Below, piece by piece: positions 5,201 to 64,000 of a stretch of DNA of 64,000 nucleotides (position 1 is the first letter of the stretch; each line of letters begins with the position of its first letter). A program made the translations under genes and the position numbers. The notes below the pieces were generated by a model, which was given only the letters and a program-made list of their open reading frames with translations, was not told where the DNA came from and did not search any database. The DNA comes from Tribonema minus. Lineage: Eukaryota > Sar > Xanthophyceae > Tribonematales > Tribonemataceae. The stretch covers positions 868,001-932,000 of the forward strand of contig JAFCMP010000135.1 of assembly GCA_017506865.1 (NCBI GenBank). Direction: 5' to 3'.

Positions 5201-8200
5201 TCACCATTGGTATTTTCCGCTTTAGCCGCCAAGCAGGAAACGGACACCAGCTGGTATTTCGGGCGCAGTTGAACTGTTGCAAGGGAATTGAAGTCGCGTC
5301 ACAGTGCCCAGTAACCCCGTTCCTTATGAGCGCACATGTCCTGGGGACACCAGCACTAATCTGTGTCCACACCTGCCTTGCGATTTCCTGCAAGTCTGCC
5401 CTTTAGAGACACACTGCGGAACTTCACGTCTCATCCGTATGTCCACAACGGCATCGCGGGGTCATTTTCCATGCCACAGTGCTCAAGTCACCCTGACCCT
5501 GTTGGTGCATTCATCGAGAGTTCCAGCACCTCACCGCGTTCCGCGTGTGCATGCTGTCTCCCCCACGCACCAACAAACGCCCCATGTCACAGTGCTCAGA
5601 ACTTGTACCCCTCCTATCGCATGCACCTGCCCAGAACCCAGGGCTGATTCCACACGTGTACTGGTGCTCAGTGGCCACGGCCATACCGCAAATGCACGAC
5701 GCACGCAATGCCAATGACTCAGGTGTCGTTACTCAGTGGCCACGACCATACCGCAACTGCACGATGTACGCAATGCCAATGACTCAGTTGTCGTTACGAC
5801 TCAGTGGCCACGGCCATACCGCAAATGCACGACGTACGCAATGCCAACGACTCAGTGGTCGGTACGACTCGGTGTCCACGGCCATACCGCAAATGCACGA
5901 CGTACGCAATGCCAACGACTCAGTTGTCGTTACGACTCGGTGTCCACGTGTCCATACTGCAACTGCACGATGTACGCAATGCCAACAACTCATTTGTCGC
6001 TACGACTCGGTGTCCACGTGTCCAAACCGCAAACGGACCACGTCCGCAATGCCAACGACTCAATGACTCAACAACTCAATGACTCACCCACACATCCTCG
6101 ATGGCATCGCGGGCCACGTCCCAAATGCCAACAACTCAATGACTCAACGACTCAATGACTCACCCACGCATCCTCGATGGCATCGCGGGCCACGTTCTCC
6201 AGCACCTCCGCGACCGCCGCGTCTAAGAGGCCCCCGCCGATGCGCCACAGCCGCTGCCGCTCCACGTACTCCTCCGCCGCCTCACGCACAGCCTGGTGTC
6301 AGGGGCGCAGCGGTGACACAACGAAAGAAATTAGATGGATGGCACGTGCATATGCGTTGTGTGTACAGAGGAAATTAGACGGATGGCATATGTATACGCG
6401 TTGTGTGTGTCACGGCCGGGGGAGGCGCGCAGAGCGGGCGGTCCTGGCGTCGTCAGTGATGGCGAATCGCTGAACATGACGCGTCGTGCGCTCGATGGCT
6501 GTACTCTCCTCCGCCGCCTCGCGCACCGCATCATGATGCAGCGCAGTTGTTGACAACACGGAAGAAATGAGATGGATGGCATATGCATATACGTTGTGTG
6601 CGTCACGGCCGGGGGAGGCGCGCAGAGCGGGCGGTCCTGGTGTCGTCAGTGATGGCGAATCGCTGAACCTGACGCGCTGTGCGCGCGACGGCGGGCATGG
6701 CAGTCGCCGGTTCGCGGTTCGTCGCTTGCGGGGTACTCCACGGTGCAACTCTAACCTTAACGCTATGTAACGATAATCTCTGCACAGTGACAGCGCTCAA
6801 CCATCTCAAAGTTCAAGTCTGAAGCTCCACTGCGCACGCGCCTCGTACCTCCGCCGCGGCCTCGCACGCAGCGCCGCGCATCGCCTCCGCCAGCACAGCG
6901 GCAGTTTCTGCATCATGACAGCGCGCGGCCACCTCAAAATTCAAGTTTGAAGCTCTACCGAGCGCGCCTTGTACCTCCGCTGCGGCCTCGCGCGCAACGC
7001 TGCGCGTCGCCTCCGCCAGCACTTCGTCCGCCACCGCCAGCAGCGGGTTGCGGCGCTCCGCGGCGCGCGCTGCGGACAGGTGCGCTGCCGCCGCCTCGCG
7101 CACCGCCGCCGCCGCTGCCGCCGCCGCTGCCTCCGCCACCAGCGGCTGCAGGAGCTCTGCGGCCTGCATGGACGCACAGAGAATTGTGAGTGGCGCTTCG
7201 AGGCTGCGGGATGGGGCGCAGCTCCGCACAGCTCGGGTTGTGGTTGTTGCGGCAGAGGCGGGGCTAGAGCGCCGGCGCTCATTGTGCTAGGACGCGGCAC
7301 ATGTCTCAGCAAGTACAAACTGTCCGCATCGAATACCTGGATCCGTTGCCGACCTTGCCAGTCGACGCACACCCAGGCCCGGTGTACGCAGACAACCATG
7401 TATTTTTTGTCGATACTCGCTTGCACACCTCTTGGCGTGAGTGATCTAAAATGCCATTCTTGCACTCACACACGCAGCGCACACACAGCAATGGCAGCAC
7501 TTGCGGATGCCGCGGCTGACACATGCATCATGTGATCGAGTGCTACATCTGGCATGTGCATCGTACGGTTGAGTGCTGCAGCCGTGTCTGACATACGCAT
7601 CCTACGACTGAGTGCAACGTCTGACGTATGCATCTTACCATTCAGTACTAAGTATGTCAGACATATGCATCTTACAGTTGAGTGCCGCAGCATTTTCGTG
7701 AGCTGCTCAGCGCTGCTCACCACGGCCTCCATCGCCTCCGACTGCATCGCACGCTCCCGCGCTGCCGCCTCCTCCGCCACCACAGCGCTCGCCACGCTCC
7801 GCACCGCCCCCCCTCTGCCGCTGAGACACTCGTGCAGCAGCGCCGCCGCCACGGCGGCGCTGCGCTCGCGCAGCAGCGCCGCGGCGCGGCGCGCCGCCGC
7901 CGCACGCCGGCGCCGCAGGAACGCCCTTATGCAGCGCTGAATGCGTACGGCAGCAGCGGTCTTGAGCGCGGCGTCCAGGCGTTGAGCCTCAGCGGCAGCG
8001 CGCTTGCGCTGCTGCTGCCGCTTTGAGCTGCTGTGCAAGCGCCGATGGGCGTCATGGTGGTGTGTGCGGCGGTGCTCATCGGCGGATGCGCCGCCATCGC
8101 TGCCGCGGCGGCGGCTTTTGCGCCTGCTGCTGCTGCTGGGTATGTGATGATGATTGCGGTGGCCGTGTGATGTGTCTTTGTGGTGGCTTGAATGGCGCTC

Positions 8201-10001: not shown

Positions 10002-13000
10002 ATGGCGAAGCAGCGGGCGCAGCAGCATTGGCGTTTGCTGCTGCTGGCCTGCTTGGCCTGCGCACATGTTCACATCACGCAGGCATTTCTGCCTCTGAGC
10101 GCAGCTCCTGCCACGGCAATCAGGCAGCAGCATGCCAGTCACAGGTCCAGGCTTGCAGCTGCTACTACCTCCTCCTATCTTGCATCTCTGGAGCAGCAGC
10201 AGCAGCAGCAGGCCACGGAGGCGTCACAGGTCGACGGCAGTAAGCCTGTGGGGCCTGCCAAGACAGTGATAATCGGAGGCGGGCCTAGGTGAGCGGGAAG
10301 GACGTATGCGCGCAAGTCGTACAACACTCCACCTTTGCTGCATGTGATAATTGCACAGCGCAAGCATGTGCCTCTGGTCAGATCAATTAGCCTGTGTGTG
10401 GCGCGTCACCATTCCAGCAGGAAGTAGTACTCTCAGTCCCTCATCAAAGTGTGGTCATGGCTGCTGGCTGACATGCGTCGATGCCATCACCATCGGAATC
10501 GTCACCAATGCCGCTGATGACGCTGCGGCTTCCTACATGCCCCACTTCCGGCTTTCACTTCCTGTTCTCTGCGCACTGTGATGCGACAGTGGCCTGGCGA
10601 CTGCGCTTATGCTGGCGAGGCGCGGTTACAAAAACATATCCGTTTACGAGAGGCTGAGCCAGCCACCGAAGCCGGATAGCCAGGAGTGGGGAGACCCAAA
10701 CAGGTGCGTTTTGAATGCATTCAAATTCATGAAATGTCCAGCTTGGGCTACACATGTAGCTGCATTCACAAGGCATGCACCCACTGTGTTCTATCATCGA
10801 ATATACTTGCTGCTATGGATCAAGAAGTGATTGCCGTGGCCCTTCTGCCAATATCTCAAGCGCCCGGCTCAAGATGTTGTTGTTGCAGCAGCAGTCGTAG
10901 TGGTAGTGAGATGAACACGGACAGGGCGATCTGAGCGCATCCTAATCTGTGCCCTGCTGCACTCTATGTATCAGATGCATTGCCTCAAGAGAACGGGCAA
11001 TCGTGTTAAGTTCGCCATTTCAGGCCCTGGCAGCGAGATGCCTCTGAGTGCGTTGCAGCCGAATTCACTCCTTATTTGCGAGACACTGGAAGACACAACC
11101 GTCCTCCCGCAGATACGCACGCGTGGCCGGAAATATGCAGCTGCGCTGTTGCCGGAGGACGGCGAGGATGGCGGAAATAGAAAGGGAGAAAGACGCCTCC
11201 AGCTTCAGATGCCCAACACCACGACGATATTGTGCCACTCATCAACAGAAAACACACAAGATGGATCCACTCCCCAATCGTCTGCGACCGACTGCCTCTC
11301 ACCTGCACCCGCCGCGCACGCCGCCACCGCTGCCGTCGCTGCTGCCGCCAGGAGCTACATGCTGGGCATTGGCGGGCACGGCCAGGTCTCGCTCCACACC
11401 ACGCGTCTGTGCGTATTTCGCGCACTCCTCGATAAACGATAAAAAGCACATGACATTCACTCACCGATCGTCCCCCACCGACTCGCCCCTCACCCGCTCT
11501 CGCCGCACGCGCCACCGCCGCTACCGCAGGAGCTACATGCTGGGCATCGGTGGGCGCGGCCAGGTCTCGCTGGCGCGCCTCGGCGCCTTCGGGCGCGTCA
11601 TGGCGTACTGCGCGTCGGCCGTCGGGCGCATGGACTGGAGCCCCAAGAGCCCCGACGCAGTCATACGCGACTTCTCGGAGAGGTGCGTGCGTGCGTACAT
11701 GCGAACCCCCTTCGCCTACTGACGAAACTAACACCGTGGCAAAGTAGGACACGCAAGGTGGACCCAGTGCAAAGTGCAGAACAGCACTTGACCAGGGCAG
11801 GCTGGATTGCAAAGGAGTGATTATCATGTGGGTGTTTGTTTGTGAGAAACAGTCCTGCCGCAGGGGCAGACCAGAACTGGACAGGTGCTGGACCAGTCCA
11901 TGGTGGACCAACAGAGCAACTCCACTGTGGTGAGGACCTGTGCAGGTATGTAGGCACATGCAAATATGGTGCGTACGTTTCAAACTCCGTCAGTTGAAGT
12001 GCGCCCAGGGACCGCCCGACGCAGTCATCCGGGACTGCTCAGAGAGGCACGAACGTAGATGCTACCCATGTGCCGCACGGCGCTTGGTTACTGTGTGCGC
12101 CGATGCAGCCGTCAGCGACCTGTTTTGCGTAAGGACGCACCTCAAGTCTGTAATTGAGGATGACATGTTTCCAGCTTGAATGCTTTATACTGCATAGCAA
12201 GCCACCGGCACCTCCTGTCGGTGAATGTTCATCGTCTGAATTCGTCAGCGCCCTGAGCAAGAATCTACGAAAACCACGAATCTCTGCAGACCCCGCCCCT
12301 CAACCTCTCGCACAGCATGTTCAGAGTGCACGCCAACCGCCGCTGCCCCCCCCCCTCCCCCCCCGTCAACCACCCCCACTCCCCCCACTTGCACACACTC
12401 GCCTCCCCCCCCAGGAAGTACAAGACGCGCACGATAGCGCGCGACAGGCTCGTCGCCGCGCTGCTGGAGGAGGTGCCCGATGTCTGCACCTGTGCACTGC
12501 CCTTGGGCTATTTCCTCAAAACTTCTTGAGCCAGATGCCGCCCTCGGCCTTTTCAAAGAGCCCCACACACTCCCCCCCCCGCCCCCCCCTCCCCCCCTTT
12601 GCAGGAAGTACAAGACGCGCACGATCGCGCGCGACCGGCTCATCGCTGCGCTGCTGTCGGAGGTGCCGGATGTCTGCATTTGCACTGCCCTTGGCCCATT
12701 GCTTGAGCTAGATGCTGCCCTCGCCTTGTCACACACACACCCCCCGCCCCGCCCCCCTGCTGCAGGAAGTACAAGACGCGCACGATAGCGCGCGACAGGC
12801 TCGTCGCCGCGCTGCTGGAGGAGGTCCAGGCGCGCCACGCGGATGCCGTGGACGTCGCCTTCGATGTCGACTGCGCCGCCGTCGCGTGGGGCCCCTCCGT
12901 AACCGCGCCGAAAGGCAGCAGCGAGCAGCAGGGCGATGGCAGCAACGCTCAGCAGGGAAGGCCCGTGCGGCTGAGCATGGTGCCGGGGCCCGCGGCGCCT

Positions 13001-16000
13001 TCAAACGTCGCGCCATTTGAGCTGGAGGCTGACTTGGTGGTGGTGAGGAAGGGGCCGTTTGTGCATGCTGCTCTAGGGCTGCGAGAGTTGCAGTGTGTTG
13101 TTGCATTCCAGTCCGCTTGCAGGGTCAAGGCTGATTTGGTGGTGGTGAGGAAGGGGGTGCGCCGTTTGCGACTGCTGCTCGCAGGCTGCGAAAGTTGAAG
13201 CGCTTCGAAGCATTTCTTCTGTTGTCCCATTCTGCTTGTAGGGAGTGGTCGAACTCGAGGCTGATCTGGCGGTGGTGAGGAAGGGGCGCGGCGCGACACT
13301 TGCGCACGCTGCTTGAGGGCTGCGAGAGTTGAAGCGTGCTCTTGTATGCTGTTCCACCTAGGAGTGGTTACGCTTGTTGCCACATCATTGTGACAACAAT
13401 TCCGTTTGCGCGTGCTGCTTGACGGCTGCGAGCGTTGCGGTGTGTTTTTTGTATTCCGTTCCGCTGGTAGGATCGAGGCTGACCTGGTGGTGGTGAGGAA
13501 AGGGCCGTTTGCGCTTGCTGCTCAAAGGCTGCTAGAATTGCAGTGTGTTCTCGTGTTCATTTCCGCTGGTAGGGAGTGAGTATGCCTTTTCTGGTTGACA
13601 ATGTGTGACATGAAGGCCATCAGTCAGCGTCGTCCGCCGCTCGTTTAGAAGGGCGGTCAGGTCAATCGAGGCCAATTGCAACCCCACGCAGTGCGCATTG
13701 CTTCGCACGCCATTGCGGCAGAGCGTGTTGATGGCTCCCCATGCCAAGCGCTGCTGTACTGCAAGCGCGGGCAGCGTCACTGCTTGAAGTAGCTGCCACT
13801 GCGCTGAGCGCCGCGGCCGCGATCATACCATCCATCCTGCATCTGCACGCAGCTGATGCGAAACGTGAAGCATTCCCTGACGTGCGCGCGCCTGCGCTGC
13901 TGCCGCTGCTCCTGCCGCTGCTGCTGCTGCTGCTGCTGCTGCGCTGCTGCTGTGCGCAGGGCGCCGACGGCGTACGCAGCGCCGTGCGCGCTGCCATGGA
14001 GGCCGACCCCGCAGCCGTCAAGGTATGTATGTACATCCGATGCCGCGCGCTCGTCGCGGAAACGCGTGCGAAGAGGCGAGCACTTGATGTTTTGCAACAA
14101 AGAGAGTTGTTGCTCAAGGCGAGCACTTGATGTTCTGCAACAAAGAGAGTTGTTGCTCATTGGTCTGTTGCTCCGTACCGGCACGGTCAGACATCAAGGC
14201 GACCAATGCGGCAGAAGACCGGCGACGGTTGTGTACTGTTGGAAGTGAGTGTATTCGTGGTCTGTCTACCGGCAAGTGTAACTGCCGTAACTGTCAATTG
14301 TGCAAACAGCAGCGCACATGTAACTGTCATAGGCTCCAACAGGTATGCATGTACGACCGACGCCGCGCGCTCGTCGCGGAAACGTGTGACGAGAGGCGCG
14401 CATTTGATGTCTTTGGTCAAGCGCACGCGGCGCCTCTAGCGCTCTTTGCTGGCGCATACGCGCGAAGGTTTGAGAGCAGGACCGTGTGCTCAGCGTCCCA
14501 CGCGGCTGGGCGTCGCTCGCCCTGCGCAGCAGCGCTCAGGTCTCAGTGCTTAGCGGCACTGTTGTGTGGTGCTGCGCCGCAGGTGATGTCGCGTGCGCAG
14601 AGTGCGACCGTGTGAGTCACCGGCGGGAGTTAGGGCTAGGGTTAGGGCTAGGGCCAGGGTCATGGAACCGGCAGGACAGACGTCGCATAGCGCCATCGCG
14701 AGAGCACTGTGGGCCGCGCGAGAACTGCGGGCGTCGCTGAGCAACTGTCAGTTACAAGTTGAACAACTGCCGCTGACACTTTTTCTTTGTGTTTCGCGTT
14801 GCGCAGGCCGCCAGCGGCAAGGCGCTGCGCGCGGTGCGCTTCCCCAACACCAACGAGCGCGTCTACAAGACGATCCCGCTGCGCGTCCCGGACGACTGGC
14901 GGACGGACCTCAACTACAGCTACGTGAGTGCCATACCGTAGGTATACACTTGCCTGCGCATAAACAACGCTGTTAGATATGCATGCATGCGTCGCGTGGG
15001 TACACGGTACACGCGAGTTGACAGGGACTCCGGGTCTCGCTGGCGGTGTGCGAGCAAACCCGCCACTGTGCTTCGAAAGCAGGCAGGCGCGCGGGCGCCC
15101 GTAGCATCAAGTGCAGCTTCGTGTCATGTATAATGCAGTGAACCATCTCACCATAAGGTTGGCCGCGCATTGAGCGGGACTGGTTACGTTTGCCGGATGT
15201 GTTAGGGTTAGGGTTAGGGTTAGGGTTTGTGACGGTGCGTGCGTTCCAAAGCGCACCCATCAAGGCAGCGAAGAAGCGCTTTGTCTCTGGGGAGCCACTG
15301 CGCCGCCATCATTCGCTGCCGCTGCCTGACAAATCGTCTGGCCCTCGAGCGCGTGCAGGGTACTTCCTGATGCAAACCCCCTGATGCTCGAGCCAGCTGA
15401 CTCATCACACCCTGGCATATCTCACGCCCCCCCCCCCCCCCCCCCCCCCTTTTCCCCCCTCGCTGGCGTTTCTCAGCTCAGCAAAGAGGGGGTGACCCTG
15501 GAGGCCCTGCCCAATCTCGAATGCGCCCTCGTGGGGGTGGTCCTGTACAGGCCCGGCAACGAAGCGGTGGAAAGTGAGTGTATTGTGGATCGTGGCAACC
15601 GGTGTCTGCTGATGTGCTTGCCGCCCCGACTGCCTGACATAAAAACGCATCAAGTCATGCACAGCGCCGCCGGTTTTGTGGTCTGGACCCGGTCGATGCT
15701 CTGCAACGAAGCGGCAGAAAGTGAGTATTATGGATCGTGGGGCATTCTGCGTGTGCTGCTACGCATGTTTATCGGCATTTTCAACGCTTGCCGCCGGGCT
15801 GGTGGCGAATGGCTGCGTAGCGCAGGCGGCGGCAACGCGTGATGATGATCAGTGACATGTTGTTTTCTGAACTCGCTCAGTGGTGGTGTTGGCGTCATAG
15901 TAGCTGTCATGCACTGCGGCAAAATGTGACAAGGGGGGAAGTGAGTGCTTTTGAAGTTGGTGATGTTGGCATGGCACAGGTTGAAGTTGCGGTGTGAGCA

Positions 16001-19000
16001 TGTCACGTTTGTTGCATGGAATGCGGTACACTTGCAGGTTCACAGAGTGACCGGCGGTGTATCCGTCTGTAGTCCAATGCGCAGCGTGCTGCATGCAACT
16101 TTGCATCTCCGGAACTATGCTCACGTTGCAACAACTGATTTTAACATGACCTCTGCGTGTGTCCTGTGTGCCAGGCATCAAAACGAAGGAGCAGGCCAGA
16201 GACTTCTTTGATAAGGCGTTCCCAGCACTTGCGGGCTTTATCTCTGATGAGGTACGTGCATGTTGGTGGCTGATGCGCAGTCCTGATCTTTATATGTACT
16301 CTTGTACTCTATGACGACATATTGAAGATCGCTGGCAGGAGCGGCTTCTGGTGCACTCATGCGAAAACTTCACATGTGTCCGATTAAACTTGAACATTGC
16401 CTAGGGTATTTAAGCATACCCTGCCGGTGGCCGCGACCTGTGAGCGCTGAATATGTGACACAGTGTATATGTAGCCTTGCGAAATGTGCTCAAAACGGCT
16501 GAGGTTTGCCGCTGTGTCAGCATGTGTGTAAGTGTGCATGATGGTGATATGGGCTTGCTCGGGGGGGAGTGGGGGCGGAAATGCATGAGCAGTGCTGATG
16601 CACTGCCGCGCCACTTCAACTTGATCTGATTTCATTTCTGACACAACAGTCGCTCCTCAACTTGATCTAATTGTTTTTTCAAGCCTGACACAACAGTCGC
16701 TCTGGCGAGCACTTTAAAATTTCCAAGGACTGCAAAAACTCAGCCGAGCGCCTGTGAGCAAGCCCTCATGCTTGTGCAATGTTGGTATTTGGCCGACACA
16801 CCATATTCCTAATGCTTTAGAAGTGTCTGTGAGTGTTGCAAGCCTTGTATGCATCAGTATGTTACACACCGTCTGTGGCGAGCATTACAACACATTCCCA
16901 AAAGAAAGGTGGCGCAGGCACTGTGAGCTAGCTCTCAGGCTTGCATAATGTCATTTTCTGGGCCGACACACCATGTTCCTCATATGATATCTGTGAGCGC
17001 TGCAAGCCTCGTACGCATCCGCATGTGACACACCGCCTATGTTGTGCGCCCTCGCATGCTCACTTCAGGACACGCAACGGTTCGTAGAGAAGCCCGTGAG
17101 CAAGCTGCCGTCGTCCAGGCACAGCGGCCCTGTGCTGCGCATGGGCCTGCGAGCAAGCCCTTATGCTTGTGCGAAATGTTGTTCGTCGGCAGATGCATCA
17201 TGCTCATCATGTTGTATCTGTAAGCGCCGCAAGCCTTGCCCACGCCCTTGTGTTCGCATTTCAGGACATGCAACGGTTCGTAGAGAAGCCCGTGAGCAAG
17301 CTGCCGTCGTTCAGCTACTGCGGCCCGGTGCTGCACATGGGCGCAGCGGGCGTGCTCCTGGGCGATACCATCAAGACCGTCAAGCCGTACTTTGGCATGG
17401 GCGTCAACTCGGTAACAAGTGCAGTGCGCGCCGCAGCACAGCAGCGCTAACCCTAACCCTAGATACCATCAGAAACGTCAGTCCTAACCCTCACCAGCAG
17501 AAACGTCAAAGCCGTACTTCGGCATGGGCGTCAACTCGGTAAAAAGTGCACTGCGCGCCGCAGCGCAGCAGCCCTAACCCTAAACCTACCCTCAAGACCA
17601 GGTCTTTCTCGTGTAGCCTTCGTTACTCATCCCTCGGCATAGGCGTCGACTCGGTAAAAACGGCTCTGCGCGCCGCAGCGCAGCAGCCCTACTTTCTCTC
17701 TCGTGTAGCCTTGTTCCTCCCTCTTTCGACCCCGTGTCTGCACGGACACTCCAACTAGAAGTACACGGCGTGATGCGTGGGCATAAGAGGCGGCGCTGCG
17801 TACTTCGACATGGGCGTCAATTCGGTAAAAAGTGCAGTGCGCGCTGCAGCACAGGCGCCCTAATCCTACCCCCAACACCAAGTCTTTCTTGTGTAGCCTT
17901 TGTCATGAGCGCCGCAGCACAGCACCCCTAACTCTAGGACTAGGTCCGCTCTCGTGTAGCCTCGTTGCTCCCTCTTTTGACAGTACTTCGGCATGGGCGT
18001 CAACTCAGTAACGTGCAATGGACGCGAATCAAAAGATCACAGAGCTCCATGTGACAAAGTGTGGTGAGCCGCAAATGCCTTCCACCAATGACCGTGGTCG
18101 CCGCTGCTGCGGCAATTGGACCCAAGCATGTGTGGCGCAGCACAGCAGCCCTAAACCTAACCCTCAGACACTAGGTCTCTCTCGTGTAGCCTTGTTGCTC
18201 CCTCTTTTGACCGTTGAGGCCGGCGCTGTGTCCTGGCACCTAAACTTTAACTAGAAGTATACATAGAGTCGGCGTTGCGCGGGATGGGGTGACTGCACCA
18301 CCGGCTGACGCATGTGATCTTTCACTCTTGTTGTGTGTTTCTCTGCGACCAAAACAGCATTATAGTGTGCCTCACGCGTGAGATGTGCTGAGCTCGTCTT
18401 TGCCAGAAGCGGTGCTCAAAACTCCTTCATGTCATACATATACACCTCCATCTGTGAAGTTAGGGTCGATCAAAATGAGAGCAAAAGAGAATACATAGTG
18501 GTTGGCTCACCTGTCGAATGATTGCAGCTGCGGGTCGCGGCGGAGCAGGCGATGCTGATGAATTAGCCATTATTGAGTGAGCACGGTGCTGGTCACGCAT
18601 ACATACATACATACTCCTGTTTCAAAGTACACTGGAAGTGTACGAGCATTTGCATCCTGTAAAATATCAGTATTGTGAAGAATGCATGTTTTCAAAGTAC
18701 AACGCAAGTCTACGAGCAGGTACATACTGCAAAGTATCAGTATCGTCAGGAATGCATAGTATGTACTGTATGCATGCACGGATGTGGGTATGCACATGTT
18801 GAACGGCTGCTTGTCTCGGCAACACCACCCAGTGCCAGGCTGACGCTCCTCCGCTCCCTGCTCCAGGCATTCGAGGACATATGCGTACTGGACGACTGCC
18901 TGAATGACACGGGGGACAATCTGCAAGAAGCGCTGCCGCTCTTCTCAAAAAGGTGCGTCCGCAGTTGAAGCGGAACTTGTGAGTTTTCTTTGTCTTGGGG

Positions 19001-20055
19001 CAGAAGCGCGTTCAGCATCATCAGGATATCTGCAGCTCCCCGCGACGATGTACTGGTGATGATTGGCGACATTGCTCCACACGCGCCTACACTCGCGCAC
19101 TGAACTTCTCTTCTGGAGTTCTGAGGTGCAGCATCACGGTGCATTGGTGGTGTTGTGTGCAACTGCAGCTGCCCCCCCCCCCCCCCCCTGTAGCTCCCTG
19201 GTTCTCAACTTCACATGTGCATCTCCAAATGTCCTCCTGCACCTGGTCCGCTCCTTCTCAACTTCACATATCCTCCCCCCGTTTCAGAAACCCCCCTGTG
19301 TTCTCAATCTCCATTCTCTCCTCCCCCCCCCCTTGCGCCAGGCGTGCCGCAAGCGCCAAGGCCCTGGTTGAACTGAGCCGCCAGTTTGATTCCGAGGGCA
19401 TCAAGCAGGCGGTGCTGTTCATCGGGCCCATCATCCTAGACGGCATCTTCAGCAAGGCGTTCCCGCGTGCGTTCAAGCCTAACACCATACAGCTGCTGCA
19501 GATACCGGAGGCGGGCAGCTTTGTGCAGGTATGTAGGTATGCCCGTGAAGCAGGGATGCCCCCCCCCCCCCCCCCCCCCTCCCCATTTTGTTTTTGAGTG
19601 TCGGCAAGAAAGAGAGATCCTGTCTCTGTCTTGGCATCCTGGGTGGGTACACCCGCCACACCTCAGCATGCGCGGTCGTTCGAGCGAAATTCAGCTATCA
19701 TTAGCTGTCACCAAGGAGGGGGGGGAGGGGGGCTGCAACCATGTGCCTACACTGTCTGGTGAGTGCCCAGCAAATACTGATGCGTGCTGATACCTGATAC
19801 ATGCTGCCCCCCCCCCCCTTCCCGGACTCTGCACAAAAACCTGTTGCTCCAAAGCGCGTTCCCCCTTTCTCGTGTGAAGGGCGCGTGCTTCCTTGCGTTC
19901 AGCGTTTCACTGCCGCTGCTGTGGCGGCGGCGGCGCCGCCAGTGGCTGGAATGATTTCAACGAAGCCTCCGTACGCCCCGGTGGCCATCACAATGCAGCG
20001 TGCGCGCGCCACCGCTGCTGCGCATTCGCACTCGCGCACACGCATGCCCACTGAC

Positions 20056-20086
<31 letters not shown>

Positions 20087-43000: not shown

Positions 43001-43419
43001 ACGCAGTGACAGCGCACTGGCACGCACATGTGGACATTGCATCGCGAACCATCCACGCAAGAACCAGTTTTGATCTGACTCTCCCTCCCCCCCCCCCCCC
43101 CCCCCCCCCCGCGCGTGCGCCCGCACGCACGCACCACGGGCTGGAAAACTTGTTAAAGTTGCTCCATATTTTCCAAGCAGACACTCCAGATTTTTTCAAT
43201 CACTGACATTTGCATGTCGTCCCCCCCGGCAGCGCGCATACGAGCCAGCTGAGCGTCGAGCACCTGGCCGCGGCGCAGGTATATAACGCGCACGGCACCG
43301 GCACGCGCATATGGGCATTGCATCGCGAACTATCCTGGCGTAAACCACTTTCGATCTGACTCTCGCTTCAAAGCCCCCCCCCCCACTCCCCCCCCCCCCC
43401 ACTGCCCCCCCCCCCCACG

Positions 43420-43454
<35 letters not shown>

Positions 43455-45626: not shown

Positions 45627-46321
45627 TGAGAATGTGTTTGCTCAGTCGTGGGAGCTGCCCTCCCTGCCTCTTTGTACTTTGCTGCATGTTCCTTGGCAGC
45701 TCATCGCGGAGCGCGTAGGTCGGATGGACGCGAACTATTCTTGTGCACCACCCCTCCGTCTGAAGCTCGCTCATGTGAAGAATCGAATCGATTTCAGGAT
45801 CCAAGGTAGTCGTAGTTTTTTGGGTGCTGCCGCGCCCACGCAACCAACCCTCAGCACCACGTGCTTTCAAGCAACGAACCTCGGCGCCGATGTTCGCAGC
45901 TCGCGCCAGCTAGCTCAACATTCATCAGACCAACCATTCATCGGCGCAACTCAAAACAAAAAAAATGAACTTCCGTTACATGTGTGAAGGTTTTTTGCCA
46001 CAGATGGATACTGCGGCATGCCCAGACGCGCCCCAAGCTGATATCTCAGCTGTACTGCACAACTGTAGTGCGCAGCGGTGTATCGATCATGCTAGGCTTC
46101 GATATCGCATCGCAGTCACGACTGCTCTTTGCCCACCACGCAAGTTGCTGGAGTCCCCTCCGAGCAGTAACACAAGACAGACAGCGACAGCGGCAACATG
46201 CGAGTAGCGCGGCCTACGGATGCGCTGACGCACGTTGAGCTTTCCGATCGTAGTCCGTGCCATCAAGCAAGCAAGGAGCTGCCATTTCTGCTCTTGCGTC
46301 CTACTGCGAGCACACATCAGC
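45627..46321. other. Spacer between COG4 and the next plus-strand gene
   Basis: No convincing gene. It should include the COG4 3' UTR and polyadenylation signal and the next promoter. A short poly-A patch (acaaaaaaaatga) is at about 45,955. Confidence 0.45.
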
Positions 46322-50157: not shown

Positions 50158-53100
50158 TTACGCCCGCAGGAAGAGCAGGCGCGGCGGCTCCGGGATGGGC
50201 AGCGGCTGCGGCGGCGCACACGGCAGCGGCGAGGAGGCGTCAAGGGAGAGAATTGAGGTTCACGACTTCAAGTTTCAGAGACAGGTGTCGAGGACACAGG
50301 GGTATTCGCTCCTTGCAAATTCTCGCTTGGGAGGGCCCTGGCGATCAACATACGCGCACGCCTCCAGGCGTGTTCATGTCTTGTCACAAAAGCACGCAAC
50401 GGGCCAGCGCACGCGTGCGCACCACTTGCTGCGTGCTCTTGACAGGTATAGTTGAGTGCTGTCACGTCAGGGGCCTGCCGCCCCCGTCACTGTCACATTT
50501 CGCTGGCGCGCCGCGCGCGCGCTGCCTCTTGCTGGAATGCGTCTCTATGCAATGTCTGTCGCCCGCATCGTGACGCGCCAGTGCGCGTGTCAGTTCCTAT
50601 CGTGATCATGCGTCGCAGCGGCGCCCGTTGCGGGACGGCTTCGTGACATGACTGCGTGCCGTTTGCGCAAGACACGCGCACTGTGGTGTCGCGATCATGC
50701 ATGCCGAAGCATCGTGAAGTGCTCCTTAGCACGTTGGTACTGATGTGAGCGCAGCAGCAGCAGCAGCAGCAGCAGCGCTCACCAGCACGGCCTCCTCGCG
50801 CCTGTCGGCGGCCGTCCAGCACCACGCGGGGACGTTGTGCTGGCCGCGCACGTTGGCAAACACGAGGCGCACGCGCGGGTCCTTGTCGACCTGGCAGCGG
50901 CAGCGGAGCGTCACCACACAACACCGGTTGAGCATCGCCACAACACCGATTGAGCATCACCACAACACCGATTGAGCATTATCACAATGCAAACACAAGG
51001 CGCACGCGCGGGTCCTTGTCGACCTGGCAGCGGCAGCGGAGCATCACCACAACACCGGGTAAGCATCATCACAATGCAAACACCAGCAGCATGTGCAACA
51101 GCGCTGCGAACCTGCAAGGCCGCTGGTGAGGAACCGTGCGTTCAAAATGGCTTGCATTGGGGTGTGTGAGGGGGGAGGCTGCAGCACGCAGCGCTCGGCA
51201 ACTGCTTCGCCGTTCTTTCGGCACGGGTCTCTGCTGCCAAACCGAGAACCCTCACTGAGCTCCAGAGCGTCCACCAGTGACCGAGCGAACCGAGTACGAG
51301 TGACGCCCTGAGGGTGTGGCAGCGCTCCTCAACACGGCAGTGGTGTTCAGAGAGGGTAGCAGCGCTCAGAAAGGGCGGCAGCGCTCATCACTAGAGTGGC
51401 AGCGCTCCTCGACATGGCAGCAGCGCTCATAAAAAAATGAACAGGGCAGCAGCGCTCCTCAACACTGGCGGCAGCGCTCAGAGAGGCTGGCAGCGCACAT
51501 CAACAGAGCAGCAGCGCTCCTCAACAGGCAGCAGCGCTTCTCAAGCACGGCGACAGCGCTCAGAGAGGGTGGCAGCGCTCATCGCTAGAGTGGCAGCGCT
51601 CCTCAACAGGGCGGCAGCGCTCCTCAACACAGCGACAGTGCTCAGAGAGGATCTCAGCGCTCATCACTAGACTGGCAGCGCTCCTCAGCAGGGCAGCAGC
51701 GCTCCTCAGCACGGCAGCGCTCCTCATCAAAACATCAGCGAAAATGGCAGCAGCGCTCACAAAGGGTGGCACTCTAAGCTGCGGCAGCGTGTGGCAGCGC
51801 TCAAGAAGGGCAGCGTGGCAGCGCTCAACGATGCAGACGGCAGCGCTCACCTTCCGCTGCACCCAGGGCCACGCGTCCGTGAGCGCGCGCGTGCGCACGC
51901 GCGAGCTGGCCGCGCTCAGCCCTACGCGCTCCAGCGCGTGCGCCTGCGATGGCGGCGGCAGCGGCGGAGAGGAGTGTTTGGTCGGTGCGAGATCAACAAA
52001 GAGCAGAGTCTGTGCACGCCAAAGTCTGTTGCGAGCGCGCGCGGTTCCTTCCTGGTCTGATGATGCCCAGGGCTTTCATCTGTTGGAGTACTTGGTTTTG
52101 GCGGGCACTTGTGGTGAGCGCATGCGGACGCGCGAGCTGGCAGCGCTCAGCCCGACGCGCTCCAGCGCGTGCGCCTGCAGCGGCGCGGCGGCAGGAGAAA
52201 GGAGCATTTGAAACCACCTGTTTCACTGTGATCATCGGTGCTCAATGATACCCAGAGCTTTCGTCTTGTCGAGTGTAAGCAAGTGCGGACGCGCGAGCTG
52301 GCAGTGCTCAACCCTGCGCGCTCCAGCGCGTGCGCCTGCGGCGGCGCGGGCGGCGGAGAGGAATGTTCGGTTCGAGACAACAGAAAAGGGTGCGTACACA
52401 AAACGTACGTTGTTGCGAGCGTTCATGGCTGCTTGCGGGCTCAACGATACCCAGGGCTTTCGTCTTCTCGGGTGTACAATTTTGCAGATATGTGTAAGCA
52501 AGTAGCGCTCGGCCCTGCGCGCTCCAGCGCGTGCGCCTGCGGTGGTGGCGGCGGCGGAGAGGAGAATTTGGAACCACCTGATTGATTGTAAGCACGCACA
52601 CCTGCTTACAGCCTTAGTGGGGGGGGGGGGGGGGGGGGCACTGTTTGTACCAACTGGACAACTGAAGGTGACACTGGTCTACGAAAAAGCGTCCTTGCAT
52701 GTGCAGGACGGGCATGCAATACGTGTCAACAAATCCACTATTGACGACGACATTCAAACTCGCAATGATCGACTCAGAGGAAGCTGAAGAAGTGTGATAC
52801 CCTGAGGATTCACCTGCATGTGCGAGACGGGCGGGCACGGGCTTGCCCCCCACAATTGAAGATGACGTTCAACTCGAAATGCTCACAGATACTTCTTGAA
52901 CATGTGATACCATGGAGGATTGTCCATTTATGTACCTGTATGTGCGGCACAGGCACGGGCCTGTCCTCAACGTCCTTGTGTGTGCACACGCACGTGTCAA
53001 CAACATGACGGTCGAGGATCATGTTCAAATCAAATAAAGTTCAGATCAAAGAAAGTTGAACTTGAGATACCCTGAAAATTGTACCTGTATGTGTGAGACT

Positions 53101-56100
53101 GGCACGGGCTTGTCCTCTACGTCACGCGCGTGCTCCACGAGGTATCGGTACGCAGCGTTGCGCAGCTTAGTCGCCAGCACGATTCTGTGGGGGGCCGGCA
53201 GGGGGGTGGGGACAGAGGTGCGCGAGGAGGGGGGGGGGGGGGGGGCGTGAGGTGTTTGTGCAATGTGGGGGCATGGGGGCGGGGGATGGGGGGGGAAGTC
53301 CTAGCAAAAGGGGGCGCGGAATGAGCGGAGTGCAGGCACAAGCGGTGGGGGGAGGGTGCTGTCGCAAGTCTGTTGACGAAAGCGCCCAACGTGAGCAGAA
53401 CACAGCAAGCTCTGACACGTTTCGCTGCGTTCCAGCATCGAATTCCAGCAGCTGCGGGACTCTGACTCTGCCGTTGCTTCAGCCTGCGAGACGCCGCCAA
53501 GGTCTCAGCAGGGCCAAGTCAAGTGTGAAAGAACATTTGTGAGCATTTGTGATGCTGCATGCTGCCAGACTTCTGCCGGTGGAGCCTACAGAGCCACCAT
53601 TACCAATCGCTCTCTCTCTCTCTGCCCTCATGCGTTGCTGATCACACTGCTGCTTCTAAATACCTACTCACACCGGTCGGCACATGTGCGCGGCAGCACT
53701 GCTCGGCGCGTGTTGACAGCAGCGCTCAGCATCCGTTGACGCTCCGATGATGGCACCCCAGGTCGCAATTTACCATAAAGCACAAGGCGCGTCGGTCCCA
53801 ATTGTGACCTTCACATCGAAATGGTGCAGGGCCGACACTCTTCTACGCCCCGCACGCACAGCGCTTTTCGACGAACTACACAGCACGACTCTCTCCTGGC
53901 AACGCGCGCTGATCATGACGCTTTCTTGAAATTGCGAGCTTATCACAATGCTTTCTTGAAAACGCGCGCGCTGATGGCCGTTGACGATGACGGCGGCGGC
54001 GGCGACGTCTCTCGCGAATCGCGATTCGTGCAGCTGCTCAGCGGCGCGCGCGCAGCGCTCCCCATCGACCGGCGCAACGCTCCACACTTTCAAAGACACG
54101 CAGTGCTGCGGCGGGCCGCAAACGACGGCGGCGTTGCTGCTGGCGCGTCGCGGTTGGCGCAGCGCCTGCGCCGCTGCTCACCGGCGGTAGCGCGCACGGC
54201 GCTTGCCGTCGACCCACAGCAGGAAGAGCAGCGCCGCCACCGCGATGCTGATCTCGCGCTGCCGCTCCTTTGCGAACGCCGTGGCCCCCCTGTGGATGCG
54301 GCGCGCGCGCGTGAGTGCGTCAGTGCCGGTAACACATTCCAGTCGCTGAAAGTGGCAACGACTAATTCTCGGTGGGTATGTATTGTGACAGCTGCGATGC
54401 TCAGCCAGCGCCGCCTCTGGCTCAGGATTAGAGTTGGGGTTTAGGGTTAGGGTTAGCCGCGAATGCGATGCCCCCAGCTCGCGATGCGCCCCCTCGCAAA
54501 CGCTGTGGCCCCCCTGTCAGTGCGGCGCGCGGGTGAGTGCGTCAGTGCCGGCGATAGTTCACGTGCTGAATTTACCTCTCAGGATGGTCCCTGGAGGCGT
54601 CCTCTCAGTATTGGAAGAGGAGGTGTGCAGGGTTAGGGTTAGGGTCAGAGAGTAGGGTCCCCTGGTAGGCTCGTGCAGCGCGTCTCTGACTGTGGGCTGC
54701 CTGTGCCAGATAGCTCTGGGGATGACCTGATTTTCGGTGGGGGGTGGTGTGACAGTTGCAGTGCTCAGCTTCTCGGTGGGCATCAGATGATACAAAAAGC
54801 GTGGCGTATGCGCACTCTCACGCGCGCATCTCGCACTATTCATATTGCTATCATCAGAACTTGATGACGTGGTACTGGCTTTGGCTATGGAACCAGGTGC
54901 GGAGGCCGTTTTGGTTGATACTGCTATGGCACACGCCAAACAACCCCGCACGCACCTCCTGATCGCGCAGCCCAGCGGTACATGCATGACGATTAGGTGA
55001 CGGAATTGTGATACCGAGCTCCATATCTCCACGAACGAACATATGCTTTTAGAAGCGTGGCGTACACGCACTTTGCGCATATACTTGCCATCGGCAAACT
55101 ATTACCTGTTTCTGGAGGCACACTACCTTTTTTTTTCAATAAAACTATTGAAACCACAACTTGGACATGAAAAAAACAAGAGGCCCCACCTATAAAATTA
55201 TACAACTCAGAAAATGGTGCGTGCCCCTCTCACGCACCTCTTGATCGCGCAGCCCAGCGGCAGCGGCACGAGCTGCTCCTCCCTCTCGCTCAGTGCAAAC
55301 TCCGCACCGCCGTCGACGACCGTGAAGGTGTCGTCCAGGAGGCCGCGCCGCAGCAGCGTCGGCAGCACGCGCGCGTCGGCAACAGCGCACGCCGCAGCGT
55401 CACCTGCGGTTGAGGCAGCGCGGCGGAGAGTGTACATAGCAGCGCGGCTCAAGCGATTGTTACATTACAGTTGAAGTTCATGTTTCGAAGCCTCCTGGCA
55501 TAGAGGAGAACGCGCCGCAGCAGCGCCGGCAGCACGCGCGCGTCGGCGGCGGCACACGCCGCGGCGTCGCCTGGCAGCGGAAGCAGCGGCGCGGCTTAGC
55601 GAGTGCTACTTCATGATTGAAGTTCACAATGCGACCATTCAGGCGTAGAGGAGCACGCGCCGCAGCTGCTGCGGGCAGCGCGCGCGCGTCTGCGGCGGCG
55701 CATGCCGCGACGGCGCCTGGCAGCGGAGGCGGAGATGTAGCAGGGCGGTTTAGCGAGCATTATTTCACATTTGAAGTTTACGATGCAGCCATCAGGCGTA
55801 GAGGAGCACGCGCCGCAGCAGCGCGCAGCAGCACGCGCGCGTCGGCGGCGGCGCACGCCGCGGCGGCGCCTGGCAGCGGAGGCGGAAATGCAGAGCGGCT
55901 TAGCGAGCGTTACTTCACAATTGGAAATAACAATGCAGCCATTCGGGCGTAGAGGAGCACGCGCCGCAGCAGTGCGGGGCAGCATCGTCGCTACGCAGCA
56001 GAGGCAGCGCGGCGCAGCGGAGGTTGCAGCGGCGCGGCTCAGCGTTGCTACTTCATGATCAAAGTTCATGATGCCTCTAGGCGTAGAGGAGCACGCGCCG

Positions 56101-59100
56101 CAGCTGCTGAGGGCAGCACGCGCGCGTCTGCGGCGGCGCACGCCGCAGCGTCGCATGGCAGGGGAGACGGAGATCGCAGCGGCGCGGCTAAGCGAGTGCT
56201 ACTTCACAGTTGAACTTCATGATGCGAAGCCCTCTCCAGGCGTGAGGGAGCGCGCGCCGCAGCAGCACGGGGCAGCACCATGCTCCTCGACGGCAGCAGA
56301 AGTTGCCGCGTCTGGTAGCGGAGGCAGCGCGGCGTACGCTGGTTGCGGAGGCAGCGGTGTTGCTCAGCAAGTACAACATCACTTGTTATGAACCTACCAA
56401 CACGATCGGTCTGTGTATGTCGCCACCGCAAGGCGCTGCTGTCACCTTGTTGTATGATGCAGATTTGAAGGTGCCATCACTGCCAGTCGCGATCGCTGCC
56501 ACCGCCTGCTGCGGCGATTCTGACGCTGGCAACAGGCGAGGCTGCTGCGCGCTGCGCGACGGGCGCAGCCAGCGCCGAGGCCTCACCGTGCGTCTTACAA
56601 GATTCCCCCCAGACAAGTTATTTAGGAGTACACAACTGCCGCATTCTACTTCAACTTGACAGCCCGCGTGACATGGTCGTGATGACTGAACAGGCTCCTG
56701 TCAGCACTGCGATACACGGCAGGCACCCGCAGCCCTCTCAGAAAGCGCAACCTACAACGCGCAGTAGACAGCAACGCCGCAAAGTCCCCCCCCACACAGT
56801 CAAGTCGATGTACACAGCTGTCCCATCCTGCGTCAACTCGCCGGCCTGCTCAAAGCATCGCAATGACTGCACGGGCGCCTATGCGCACTGCGAGACGCTG
56901 CTAGCGCCCGCAACCCTCCTTTCAGAAAGCGCAACTACGACGCGCGCGGCAGCCAAAAACCCCGCCGAACCCTCACCGTCAGCGTCGCACGCCTCTAGCG
57001 GCGGCGGCAGCGGCAGCCGCGGCGGCGGCGCGCCGCTGCACAGGTGCGCCTCCACGCTCTTCCGCAGAAAGTTCCTGGCGCGTTCCGCCTCGCTGCGCAG
57101 CCGCGGCTCCAGCGCGCACGCGTCGCCGTGCTTGACGAAGTGCGCCTCGCAGCCGACGAGCCTGCCGCCGACGCACTGCGGCGGCGGAAGCGGCAGCGGC
57201 GGCAGCAGCGCATGTCATGAGCGCCGGCGGCGGCGGCAGCGGCAGCGGCGGCGCATGTGACGTGCCCGCGCAGGCGATGTGGTGAGGCATAGGTGATCGT
57301 ATCAAGGCGTAGAGCGGTCTATCAGTGAGCACATGTGTGGTGTCTGCTGTGCTTGGGGCTGGAGTGATTACCGAATCACCATCAGTGTACGTGGTCGTAC
57401 TACAAGTCATACTGGACGTACTGCCTCGAGGAGACGTCAAGCGAGAGTCCAGAGCGCGATGTGCAGCATTTGTGTGCTTCTCCTAGCCGAAGTCACGGTT
57501 CAAATCGCACATTCGGTGAGAGCTGTGTCCAGAGGCGTGTGGAGGCATGCACTTAGTGGCGCGTTGAAACATGCACATTCACAGCGCCCTTCAACATCTG
57601 CACCCACCCAGTCTGCAGCATGTTGGCATGTACACTTTCAAATATAACATCCTTTGACAAATATATACATACAGTATATACAAGAGATACATACCGGCCC
57701 TGCACGGCCGCCGGTCCCTGCAGATGCCCTCCTCCACGCCGCCGACAATACGTACGTACAGTATACCTAGAGCTCTACGATCTTTTGATGCGTTTCCATC
57801 TACATACTGGGGATACATACCTGCCCTGCGCGCGGGCATGGCCGCCACTCCCTGCACACGCCCTCCTCCACGCCGCCGGGCGGGTCGCCGTAGCACACGC
57901 GCCCGCCGTACTGCAGGGCGGCGTGCGCCCTGCTCCACAGCTGCGCGAGCGCGACGCTGCGGGCGCGCGAGCACGGGGCATTTTGACGACTGCTGTGAGA
58001 AGTATGTATGCTTGACAAGTGACATTATATTAAAAGCATATACTTCATAGCACACGCGCCCGCCGTACTGCAGGGCGGCGTGCGCCCTGCTCCAGAGCTG
58101 CGCGAGCGCGACGCTGCGGGCGCGCGCACACGGGGTTTTGAACGACTGTGAGGGGTATGTATGCTTGACAGTTGACATTGTTTCAAATGCGTACACTTCA
58201 TAGTACTTCAAGTATACACATCGGGTCGCCGGAGTATTGCAGGGTGGTGTGCGCCCTGCCCCAGACGCGCGCGACCGCGACGCTGCAGGCGCCGTGCGTG
58301 CGTGCGTGCACGAAGCGTTTGACGGCTGTGAGGGGTATGTAGGTATGCTTGACATTATATCAAATGCATTTACAAACTCCATCACGGTACTTTCAAGTAC
58401 ACAGATCAGGTTTATACATGGAGGAGAGTGGACTCCACCCCCGGAGTCGCTGCTTGCAGCGCTGAGGTCCACAAGCGAGTACAACCAATTGTGTGTTAAC
58501 ATCCTAAACCCTCAAGGGTCACCGCATGCTTCACAATGCACGCAGAACAGTACCTTCAAGAGTGGCATGAGGATGGACAACTAGGTAGGTAAGTAAGGGT
58601 ACCTGGCAGTCGCCCAGCACCGCGGCGCCACCAGCACCAGCCCCCAGCCTGCCAGCACCACCACGAGCGCGGCAGCAGCGAGCGCGAGCGCGGCCGTCGC
58701 CAGCCGCGCGCGCCGCGACCGCCGCTGCTGCGTCGCCGCCAGCTGCGCAATGGGCTGCGCCGCCGGCGGCGCAGCGGGCGGCGGCGGCGGCGGCGCCCTG
58801 CGCGGCAGCAGCAGCAGCAACCGGATTCATGCAGGGAGTGAGAAGGCTGGCTGGCGGCTTCTTCTGTCATTTCGTGTGAGCGCGGAAGCAGCTGAGGATT
58901 GAGCTGGCTGTTGTTGTCCTAGGCTGCGGGAGCTGCGCGGCCGTGCTGAGCGATGGTGCCGGCCCGATATGTGTGTTCACGCACGTGCAACGGCCGCCGG
59001 AGTCTAACGGCATGCACGATGCGCAGCCCTGCCGCTGCGCGCGCGCAGCGCGTCAAGTGCACTCGCAGTTTACGTCATGGGGTGCGTGCAGGCGCGCATG

Positions 59101-61437: not shown

Positions 61438-64000
61438 ATGCCGGCGATTGCTGTAGCTCTGGGTGTCCTGCTTGCAAGCTCAGCTGTTGCAGCCAATCCG
61501 CCACCCCTGGCCTCCGTCTATAACAGCTCCTTCTGGTTGGGCTTGGAGTCTACTCCGCAGGACCAGGTCAGCAGCTCGCAGCCATCAGAATTATGCGTGC
61601 TTGGCCCCATTTTTACAATTGTCGGGGCGCGATTGTTCCACACCTTTCAGCAGCAACTTTGCGCGCAGGTGGATGCCCATGTACTGTGTGTTGAAGCCTG
61701 CTGTGGCCGCTTGACCTATACATTCTGCTGCAGCTTACCGATGCGGTGGCGGAGGCCGGCGGAAACGCAGTGTACATATCGGGGTACGGGTCCGGCATCG
61801 CAGCGGCAGGGGTCCCTGATCCTCGCGGTCAGGACGCATTTTTGAGGGCGTACAATGCGACAGGAGGGCTGCTCTGGAGCGCCAACTATGGGTGAGCCGA
61901 TGCTACATCATCACATTACATGTACTGCTGTTGACGCATGATGTGCATCCCCTGGCTTTCCGCACAGCACCAAGTCTGCTGACTCCTCCAATGGAGCAGT
62001 AGCTGGAGACCCATTGCGTGAATGGCATGTTCTCTATACTGGAGGCGTTCGTGGAATGCGCTGGCTCAATTTGATAATACTATATGTAGCAATTCTGAGA
62101 TTGTGGCATCGGACTGCGGCACCAGGCGCGCAGCCAGCAAATCAGGCGACTGTCGGAACGCATTGCACACGAGTGCAACACCTGTTGGACATAGGCATTG
62201 CCCCCCGTCACCGATTCCCTGCTCGGTTTCGAACTCGGCATCTTGCAATCGGCCATCACATGTGTCACAAGTTCACAATGCCAGTGTTTAAGATTTTACA
62301 TGTCGTTCGAGCAACTGGATGAAGAGGTGCCGGCGCTGCTCAGCAGCAGGCGTTCACACCTATTGCCGATGACCTCGCTCTGTGTCTGCCGCTGCTGCTG
62401 ATGATGATGATGATGATGATAATGATGCCGATGCTGATGCTGATGCTTGATGCTGCTGCTGCTGCTACTGCTGCTTCTGATGCTGCTGCTGCCGCTGCTG
62501 CTATATGCGCAGGGGGCAGTACGATGACTCGGCAGAGGGGGTTGCGCTGGATGGAAGTGGGGGGGTGTTCATAGCAGGGACGCTGGGCGGACCGCCACAA
62601 GTGAGTCAACAATAGTGTCATGATTGGACTGACAGTACATTTTTTGGCCTTCAAGTTTTGCTTATAAGAGATGCTGTGCCTATCATAGTATTATATCCGG
62701 CCTCAAAGTTTGCTTGCATCAGATGCTGTGTCTGTCATAGCATCGCGCGCACATGGGCGTATCCGCGCCGGATGTGTTCTGCTGATGGACATCACGGCAC
62801 GCAACAACTCCAGGCCGCTGACCATCATCGCCTTATGCGCTTCACTACTGCCAAGATGGAGGCGCCATTGCACTAGCCTCTGAGCGTTGACAACACCGCG
62901 GCGGGCATCCGAACCACCACGCCTACCTACCATGGCGTGCGGTCTTTGCGACACTTCAACACCATGCACTTCAACTGTGACGCGTGGAACTGATGCCATT
63001 GCTCAATACAGGGACACCTCCGGCGCGTGAGCGGCACGCCACAACGGGGCCTCAGGGTTTTTCCGCGCCGCGGAATGCGCACGGGGCGCGCACACGGCGA
63101 CGCCCACCTACATACTTCTTTGAAGTACATATCTCTGCTGGGATGTGACACTCCACACAATTCACAATTCTTTTAAGACGTTCAAATGCGCGCCTCCGCC
63201 GCCCCCGCGGCACAGGAGGACGGCACGGGGAAGAACTCTAGCGCGTTTGCGGCGCGCTACGACGCGGCGACGGGCGCGCGCGTGTGGGAGCGCACGTGGG
63301 GCACGGACGACACGGACGGCGCAGCAGGTGTCGCCGTCGACGCTGGCGAGGGGCTACTGTATGTGGTGGGGTCCACGCAGGGGAGCTTCGGGGGGGACGC
63401 CGCGGCGCCCAACGGCACGGTGAGCATACGCAGTACGTGATGTTCATTACAACATGACCTGTGTGCATGTACATGCATCTAAGGTGTACATGTACTTGAA
63501 CACATACACTACGTGTATGTACATGTGTCTAGGGTGTACGTGTACTTGAACGGCATGGTGAACATATACACTACGTGTATGTACGTGTACCTATGGTGTA
63601 CGTGTACTTGAACGGCATGGTGAGCATGCGGAGTACGCACATAAATGTATATATGTATAGTCTGCGTGTACTTAAGTGGCGCGGAGGACACGGACGGCGC
63701 GTCCGGCATCGCCGTCGACGCGGGCGAGGCGCTGTTGTATGTGGTGGGGGTCCACGCAGCAGAGCTGTGGGGGCGACGCTGCGGCGCCCAATGGCACAGT
63801 GAGCACGCGGAGTGCGCACATTGGCTAGCATGTGCATACCAAATGCACACATCATGAATTGCTGTACGGTGCCAGCATATATACTCATAGGATATGTTGG
63901 TTACACACACATATATACGTATGATGTATATATGCGGTGCGGCGCGTCTGCAAAATGCACATATGAATCGCTCTACGGTGCCAGTGTGATGTGCGCACTC
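61438..64000 (+). CDS. Secreted SBBP-type beta-propeller protein (partial, continues past window)
   Basis: The ATG at 61,438 opens a clear signal peptide (MPAIAVALGVLLASSAVAAN). Exons: 61,438-61,566; 61,734-61,891; one starting 61,968 (TKSADSSNG; end not resolved); one starting at about 62,513 with GQYDDSAEGVALDGSGGVFI and ending before gtgagtc at about 62,600; 63,216-63,419; then off the end. Repeats match the SBBP pattern: GNAVYISGYG then DAFLRAYNATGGLLWSANYG; FAARYDAATGARVWERTWG then DDTDGAAGVAVDAG then LLYVVGSTQGSFGG. SBBP repeats form beta-propellers in extracellular and surface proteins. Phases are consistent for exons 1-3, but not proven between the third and the 62.5-kb exon. The donor end of the 63.2-kb exon is copied downstream. 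Confidence 0.7.
62398..62505. repeat. ATG/CTG trinucleotide tract in SBBP-gene intron
   Basis: (atg)n then (ctgatg)n then (ctg)n lie directly before the acceptor at about 62,512. Confidence 0.85.
63420..63830 (+). repeat. Donor-side copies after SBBP exon
   Basis: The exon end with donor (GACACGGACGGCGC..., LLYVVG, then cccaacggcacg|gtgagcatacg) is copied at about 63,685-63,812 (gacacggacggcgcgtccgg ... cccaatggcacagtgagcacg). Between them the intron start gtgaRcatacRcagtacgt is repeated several times with acatgtRtctagggtgtacgtgtacttgaac. The copy has lost or gained bases and no longer keeps frame. Confidence 0.8.

Follow-up and report, generated by a model that had tools for sequence, protein, structure and literature searches.

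The 64,000 bp stretch of the Tribonema minus genome analyzed here (positions 868,001 to 932,000 of contig JAFCMP010000135.1, or C135, in an assembly of 158 Mb in 554 contigs; hereafter "the window") contains several whole or partial genes whose introns carry partial copies of the adjacent exons, each with a single splice site (called "decoys" or "half-exons" below). The gene for a KMO-like monooxygenase (10002–20214, forward strand) has an open reading frame across 12 exons and decoys in several introns; the rebuilt 12-exon protein matches the public T. minus protein P0002, whose start is later than that of our model, and its identity is backed by a named homolog. The 3′ part of a COG4-like gene (41860–45627, forward strand; four exons) and part of a LEM2/MAN1-like gene (50783–58603, reverse strand; seven full exons) were modeled from open frames and splice sites. 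These two are presumably COG4 and LEM2 as named in an earlier note on this DNA, and a Pfam scan of three single exons from them gave no match. The labels IQ and SBBP for two further genes also come from that note; the only Pfam match of the SBBP exon, PQQ_2, is below the cut-off, and Pfam confirms the FNIP repeat domain of the gene labeled FNIP.

Self-alignment of the window, a check proposed in the earlier note, yields 95 direct repeats within 1.5 kb. At 15 of the 44 junctions of the KMO, COG4 and LEM2 genes (donors 6/22, acceptors 9/22) a junction-spanning copy within 1 kb reaches threshold. The earlier note had claimed that copies of an acceptor plus exon start lie 5′ of the true exon and copies of an exon end plus donor lie 3′ of it, and this polarity holds in these three genes for 13/13 acceptor copies and 14/14 donor copies; such placement is what the geometry of tandem duplication dictates.

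In the KMO gene, a copy of the acceptor and start of exon 3 (11265–11393) precedes the true acceptor at 11530, two copies of the acceptor and start of exon 4 (12402–12664) precede that at 12766, and one of the acceptor and start of exon 9 (17047–17146) precedes that at 17265. Copies of exon ends with their donors follow exon 4 (three at 13128–13574; true donor 13042), exon 7 (one at approximately 15702–15742, 40 columns at 88% identity; true donor 15573) and exon 9 (four at approximately 17493–18020; true donor 17411). The monooxygenase cases listed in the earlier note are borne out at these six junctions; the case at donor 14022 is weak, the copy there being almost wholly intronic. Both COG4 donors that it listed reach threshold, with a series of copies of exon end plus donor at 42249–43001 (true donor 42141) and two more at 43693–43944 (true donor 43605), as does acceptor 43458, with a copy of acceptor plus exon start at 43221–43269. 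In the LEM2/MAN1-like gene (reverse strand) the copies of acceptor plus exon start comprise one at 50989–51074 (true acceptor 50890), three at 52118–52589 (51943), one at 54456–54551 (54289), a tandem set at 55504–56329 (55403) and two at 58048–58411 (57956), and one copy of exon end plus donor lies at 57675–57744 (true donor 57821). Two other LEM2 donors that had been put forward proved weaker, namely 53085 (score 44) and 55238 (a 30-base match that extends 7 bases past the junction). The IQ gene (reverse strand; exon end and donor copied at 6779–6896, true donor 6975) and the SBBP gene (forward strand; exon end and donor copied at 63678–63816, true donor 63419, with a 1-base gap that breaks the frame) each have a copy that reaches threshold, as had been claimed.

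Other repeats lie among these copies. An intron of the COG4-like gene holds a dispersed element of ∼187 bp (42468–42654) with an internal TTAGGG run, which matches at least 40 other places at 76–90% identity, and 43 bp tandem pieces at 14074–14159 are related to it. Short interstitial TTAGGG-type arrays occur at 2746, 14629, 15201 and 38872, some of them in introns, and long poly-C runs lie closely 5′ of true acceptors (43374–43453, 15431–15458 and others), as if serving as the pyrimidine tract.

Genes outside the window were chosen by Pfam matches alone, from chaperonins and proteasome subunits. Seven of ten chaperonin gene clusters were fetched, with seven proteasome loci from those with at least two matches; tRNA-synthetase matches were left out. 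Before counting, three low-confidence introns were dropped (one in locus L031 and two in L034), as were the first intron of L037 and the whole of loci L040 and L042, in which no intron was accepted. In the 33 confident introns of 11 loci counted in this way, 16/66 junctions have a copy in their own intron. The observation of exon-edge copies is confirmed as real, and it recurs in genes that were not chosen for the pattern. For specificity, these 66 junctions were joined with 42 of the window (of the 44, an outer junction in COG4 and another in LEM2 were dropped for want of a modeled partner exon). A direct copy lies in the own intron at 30/108 junctions and an inverted copy there at 0/108; when each junction was compared with a single intron of matched length from a different gene, 0/108 had a copy. 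This result speaks against an origin of the copies by chance, from low-complexity sequence or from dispersed elements.

Local repetition extends well beyond the junctions. Local direct repeats (offset 50–1000) account for 16.7% of the window and for 14.3% of the sequence in 20 sampled loci (200 kb in all, placed at round coordinates on contigs of the genome), and inverted local repeats cover ∼0.2% and 0.4%, respectively; Markov sequences of the window and of the 20 loci contain no local repeats. Run on the 20 loci with settings taken from work on Ectocarpus, Tandem Repeats Finder covers 7.6% of the sequence, and its periods of at least 50 cover 4.7–5.7% of three sets, less than local alignment finds. 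The figure given for Ectocarpus in the relevant part of PMC12477816 is 3.35% tandem repeats, from a pipeline in which transposable elements take precedence. One sampled locus, L022 (C536:100001–110000), contains satellite-like arrays of a 131 bp unit, and local direct repeats make up 42.5% of it. Within the introns of KMO, COG4 and LEM2, 88/264 interior points have a local copy on some side (59 upstream, 58 downstream), and the corresponding counts are 44/400 in the 20 loci and 16/258 elsewhere in the window. In the Pfam-chosen genes a copy was found in 140/974 one-sided interior tests, so that junctions are copied ∼1.7 times (1.68) as often as interiors. An earlier, less filtered and now superseded count, which included the three low-confidence introns and no proteasome genes, gave 10/58 junctions against 58–61/402 one-sided interior tests, with 90/402 interior points positive on any side and 17/190 exon-interior points. 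Introns that carry a junction copy have a median length of 1013 bp, against 523 bp for the others (27 introns each); this difference may in part reflect detection, as a short intron offers little space for a copy.

Around 37 internal exons, 32 copies include a single junction; copies of a whole exon with both splice sites are absent, where ∼13% (about five) are predicted from the unit lengths; the copies are not independent, so this absence is suggestive only. It would fit selection against complete extra exons together with tolerance of half-exons that have no partner site. Public gene models treat the decoys differently. P0002 includes four of the KMO decoys described above as exons (that before exon 3, the two before exon 4 and that before exon 9), and three homologs aligned with it are without these inserts. 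A CCT-theta model made without its 9 decoys is found unchanged within the public protein P0110, and a CCT-gamma model that skips 8 agrees with P0230 over the modeled exons except at one artificial join, so that these two public models together leave out 17 decoys. Decoys also give repeated Pfam matches to the same profile positions (e.g., 52–88, 53–81 and 51–147) at C51:21979–22639, C5:352998–353558 and C135:208164–208583, and domain counts in this genome can therefore be inflated.

The divergence of the copies from their sources was measured for 57 copies at 30 junctions (15/42 in the window and 15/66 outside), each extending 12 bases or more to either side of the junction; low-complexity matches were filtered, an earlier count having been discarded for poly-C matches at COG4 43458. 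The exon parts differ by 9.6% and the intron parts by 17.1%, a ratio of 0.56 (0.47–0.66). A ratio of about 0.5 is expected of a decoy that drifts freely beside a conserved true exon, because intron sequence accumulates changes in source and decoy alike. At codon positions 1, 2 and 3 the exon parts differ by 6.4, 7.5 and 15.0%, respectively. Splice dinucleotides are kept in 23/27 decoy donors and 28/30 decoy acceptors, near the persistence that drift predicts at this divergence (by our estimate ∼0.84). Thirteen of the 15 exon-part gaps are not multiples of three and 11/57 copies carry such a frame-breaking gap; the reading frame is therefore not maintained in the decoys. When decoys are compared with each other (53 pairs at 13 junctions), codon positions 1 and 2 diverge at 0.51 (0.35–0.63) of the intron value, and position 3 diverges 1.36-fold (1.02–2.04) more than positions 1 and 2; free drift of both decoys would place the former ratio between 0.5 and 1. 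The decoys decay nearly neutrally; the decoy–decoy comparison and the scarcity of gaps in exon parts (see below) speak against full neutrality.

The smallest repeat offset in 142 clusters (satellite-like locus L022 left out) has a median of 141.5 bp and quartiles of 115 and 178 bp; it is mostly 80–220 bp with a mode at 120–140 bp, and 12 clusters exceed 220 bp. In simulations no unit of 40 bp is detected, 0.48–0.58 of those of 60–80 bp are, and 0.83–1.0 of those from 100 bp up. The scarcity of long units is therefore not a detection effect, and the lower end of the size range is poorly measured. The earlier note had given a unit size of about 80–330 bp; its small units stand, with the range narrowed as above and with a density that varies strongly from gene to gene. 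A 330 bp unit does lie head-to-tail at 23765–24429 (93% identity) and is longer than most units in the genome. Eight near-abutting pairs of at least 85% identity overlap by 5, -3, 2, -6, 2, 36, 4 and 4 bp, and in five of them the overlap is compatible with short microhomology. A process bounded at the size of a nucleosome or an Okazaki fragment, such as re-ligation of flaps or fill-in at paired nicks, would fit and is offered as a proposal. Re-ligated flaps are known from yeast rad27 mutants, and fill-in at paired nicks from work in plants. In simulations ∼0.007 duplications per base per substitution per site (∼1 per 140 substitutions) reproduce the interior rate of 0.14, a rough value that holds for a single set of assumptions and to within an order of magnitude.

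The copies are thus local and directly oriented, recur in unselected genes and loci, have a definite size scale, decay in a near-neutral manner and in this sample never include a whole exon. The explanation that we consider quite likely is repeated small tandem duplication, the products of which survive in introns or across one junction. Stretches of ∼80–220 bp would have been duplicated head-to-tail again and again across the sampled T. minus genome. Duplications within an exon or of a whole exon would mostly have been purged by selection, and those inside an intron or over one splice junction would survive, the latter since they add a truncated copy and leave the true exon whole. Left with a single, unpaired splice site, such a copy probably escapes recognition as an exon, and splicing continues at the outermost sites; exon definition would then be the reason that half-exons are tolerated. 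The decoy could subsequently drift close to neutrally and perhaps be duplicated again, the introns growing as a consequence, and at the DNA level the cause may be a length-bounded process of the kind proposed above. A more specific scenario, tentative and somewhat short of being probable, is that a bounded duplication of nucleosome or Okazaki size (mode 120–140 bp, few above ∼220 bp) keeps seeding the introns with half-exons, so that introns lengthen, the fidelity of splicing rests on exon definition, and whole-exon copies are purged. Small tandem duplication over one junction accounts for where the copies lie, how they are oriented, how local they are and how they decay, and it recurs in unselected genes; the interpretation in the earlier note is therefore largely supported. 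The very high rate of small duplication that the note deduced is putative.

Several observations weigh against this account, and some of them would favor other explanations. Among 106 abutting pairs, with L022 again left out, the size limit is less sharp (median offset 162.5 bp, 28 above 220 bp); that set includes unit multiples in arrays, and the upper limit is therefore best regarded as a tendency. Repeat density is very uneven between genes, with coverage of 0–3.6% in four chaperonin loci and 23–33% in three, and of 14.5–54.5% in four proteasome loci and 3.9–27.2% in three more (19.8% over all 14 gene loci). A rival possibility is that splice junctions are targets of duplication, e.g., through breaks linked to transcription or splicing. 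The 16 junctions with a copy compare with 8.6 expected within genes from the interior tests (P = 0.0036 if positions are independent), and most simulations of random duplication gave junction/interior ratios below 1 (0.86, 0.73 and 0.62 when small indels were left out; 0.91 and 1.17 when they were included). The two simulations with indels reached the observed 1.68 in 2.5% and 12.3%, respectively, of their 33-intron samples, the higher value coming from the older, indel-rich one, and the excess is thus marginally compatible with random duplication. The less filtered count shows little difference between junctions and interiors, and duplications abound in introns and random loci at places other than known junctions. 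Given the interior copies and the simulations, targeting is not preferred and seems unlikely as the main cause; the main fact is a general duplication of introns. A mild preference for junctions is possible.

It is similarly unlikely that the decoys are partly functional, as alternative or cassette exon edges under selection in proteins with short internal repeats. The public KMO model does take in decoys at three places, gaps are few in exon parts (0.52 vs 3.05 per 100 columns in intron parts, well under half), codon positions 1 and 2 stand at 0.41 (0.32–0.49) of intron divergence, slightly under half, and the decoy–decoy value for these positions is at the low end of what drift would give. 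Against function stand the frame-breaking gaps, the small decoy–decoy excess at position 3, the KMO homologs without inserts and the public CCT models that skip their decoys, and function as the rule was rejected on divergence, frame-breaking gaps and the decoy–decoy codon pattern. The preferred reason for these departures from neutrality is that the introns are repeat-rich and indel-prone; constraint on a minority of decoys is possible. The chance that the copies are an assembly artefact of collapsed or expanded repeats is negligible, for assemblers do not produce copies that differ by the percentages given above with a codon-position pattern. Equally improbable as a source are dispersed elements, introners included, and the birth of introns by duplication of exonic AGGT. 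The ∼187 bp element in a COG4 intron might suggest the former. For the latter, the LEM2 intron at 55404–56976 has donor and acceptor similarity in register, with a score of 13 that equals the maximum of 2862 null pairs, and is a weak candidate for an intron born by tandem duplication. That signature is borderline and occurs in 1/54 introns, no junction window among the 108 matched the single length-matched intron of another gene with which it was compared, and both origins are largely refuted for these copies.

If the sample is representative, about a quarter of this genome's splice junctions have a look-alike decoy within their own intron. Such decoys amount to a natural experiment on spliceosome choice among sites of nearly equal quality, and on exon definition vs site strength, and they give a direct look at one route of intron lengthening; the scale of the units points to a testable DNA process. 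Public gene models of T. minus should be used with some caution, since they can hold decoy exons, as that of KMO does. If the more specific scenario is true, new exon edges and new introns could be observed directly as they arise from the existing stock of half-exons.

Among known systems, tandem exon duplication (with mutually exclusive exons) likewise places duplicated exon sequence beside an exon. It differs in that T. minus has no copy with two splice sites at the 37 internal exons. Minisatellites share head-to-tail units of roughly 100–200 bp, but the T. minus copies are mostly few, diverged and often separated. Introners, as outlined in PMC9860276, also affect many introns of one genome, whereas the T. 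minus copies are local, gene-specific and not common to the introns compared. Tandem genomic duplication is counted among the real routes of intron gain in the part of a review that treats it (PMC3443670), and the duplication of exonic AGGT described there (Rogers 1989; Hellsten 2011) is, as here, a small tandem genomic duplication; the in-register donor and acceptor similarity that it leaves was found in T. minus only in the one borderline intron. In the potato RdRp gene an intron was gained by tandem duplication across one intron–exon boundary, according to the account in PMC4974935. That is likewise a structural event at one junction, but it made a new spliced intron, and no new intron is demonstrated in T. 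minus. A close parallel is internal gene duplication that crosses an intron–exon boundary (Gao and Lynch 2009, as cited in PMC3443670 and PMC4974935), in which the segment spans the boundary and leaves a partial exon copy with a splice site; the T. minus copies too lie near their source in direct orientation, and the copied segment holds both exon and intron sequence. Going by those citations, T. minus differs in that about a quarter of the sampled junctions are affected, often with several copies and of many ages, and in that the copies are left inside the intron, judging by the two public CCT models. A literature search by titles and abstract openings, which took in few subscription papers and did not cover the T. 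minus genome paper, found no report of such copies pervading one genome, nor of the pattern in Tribonema. The type of event is thus a known one, and its pervasiveness, its size scale and its effect on annotation appear to be new.

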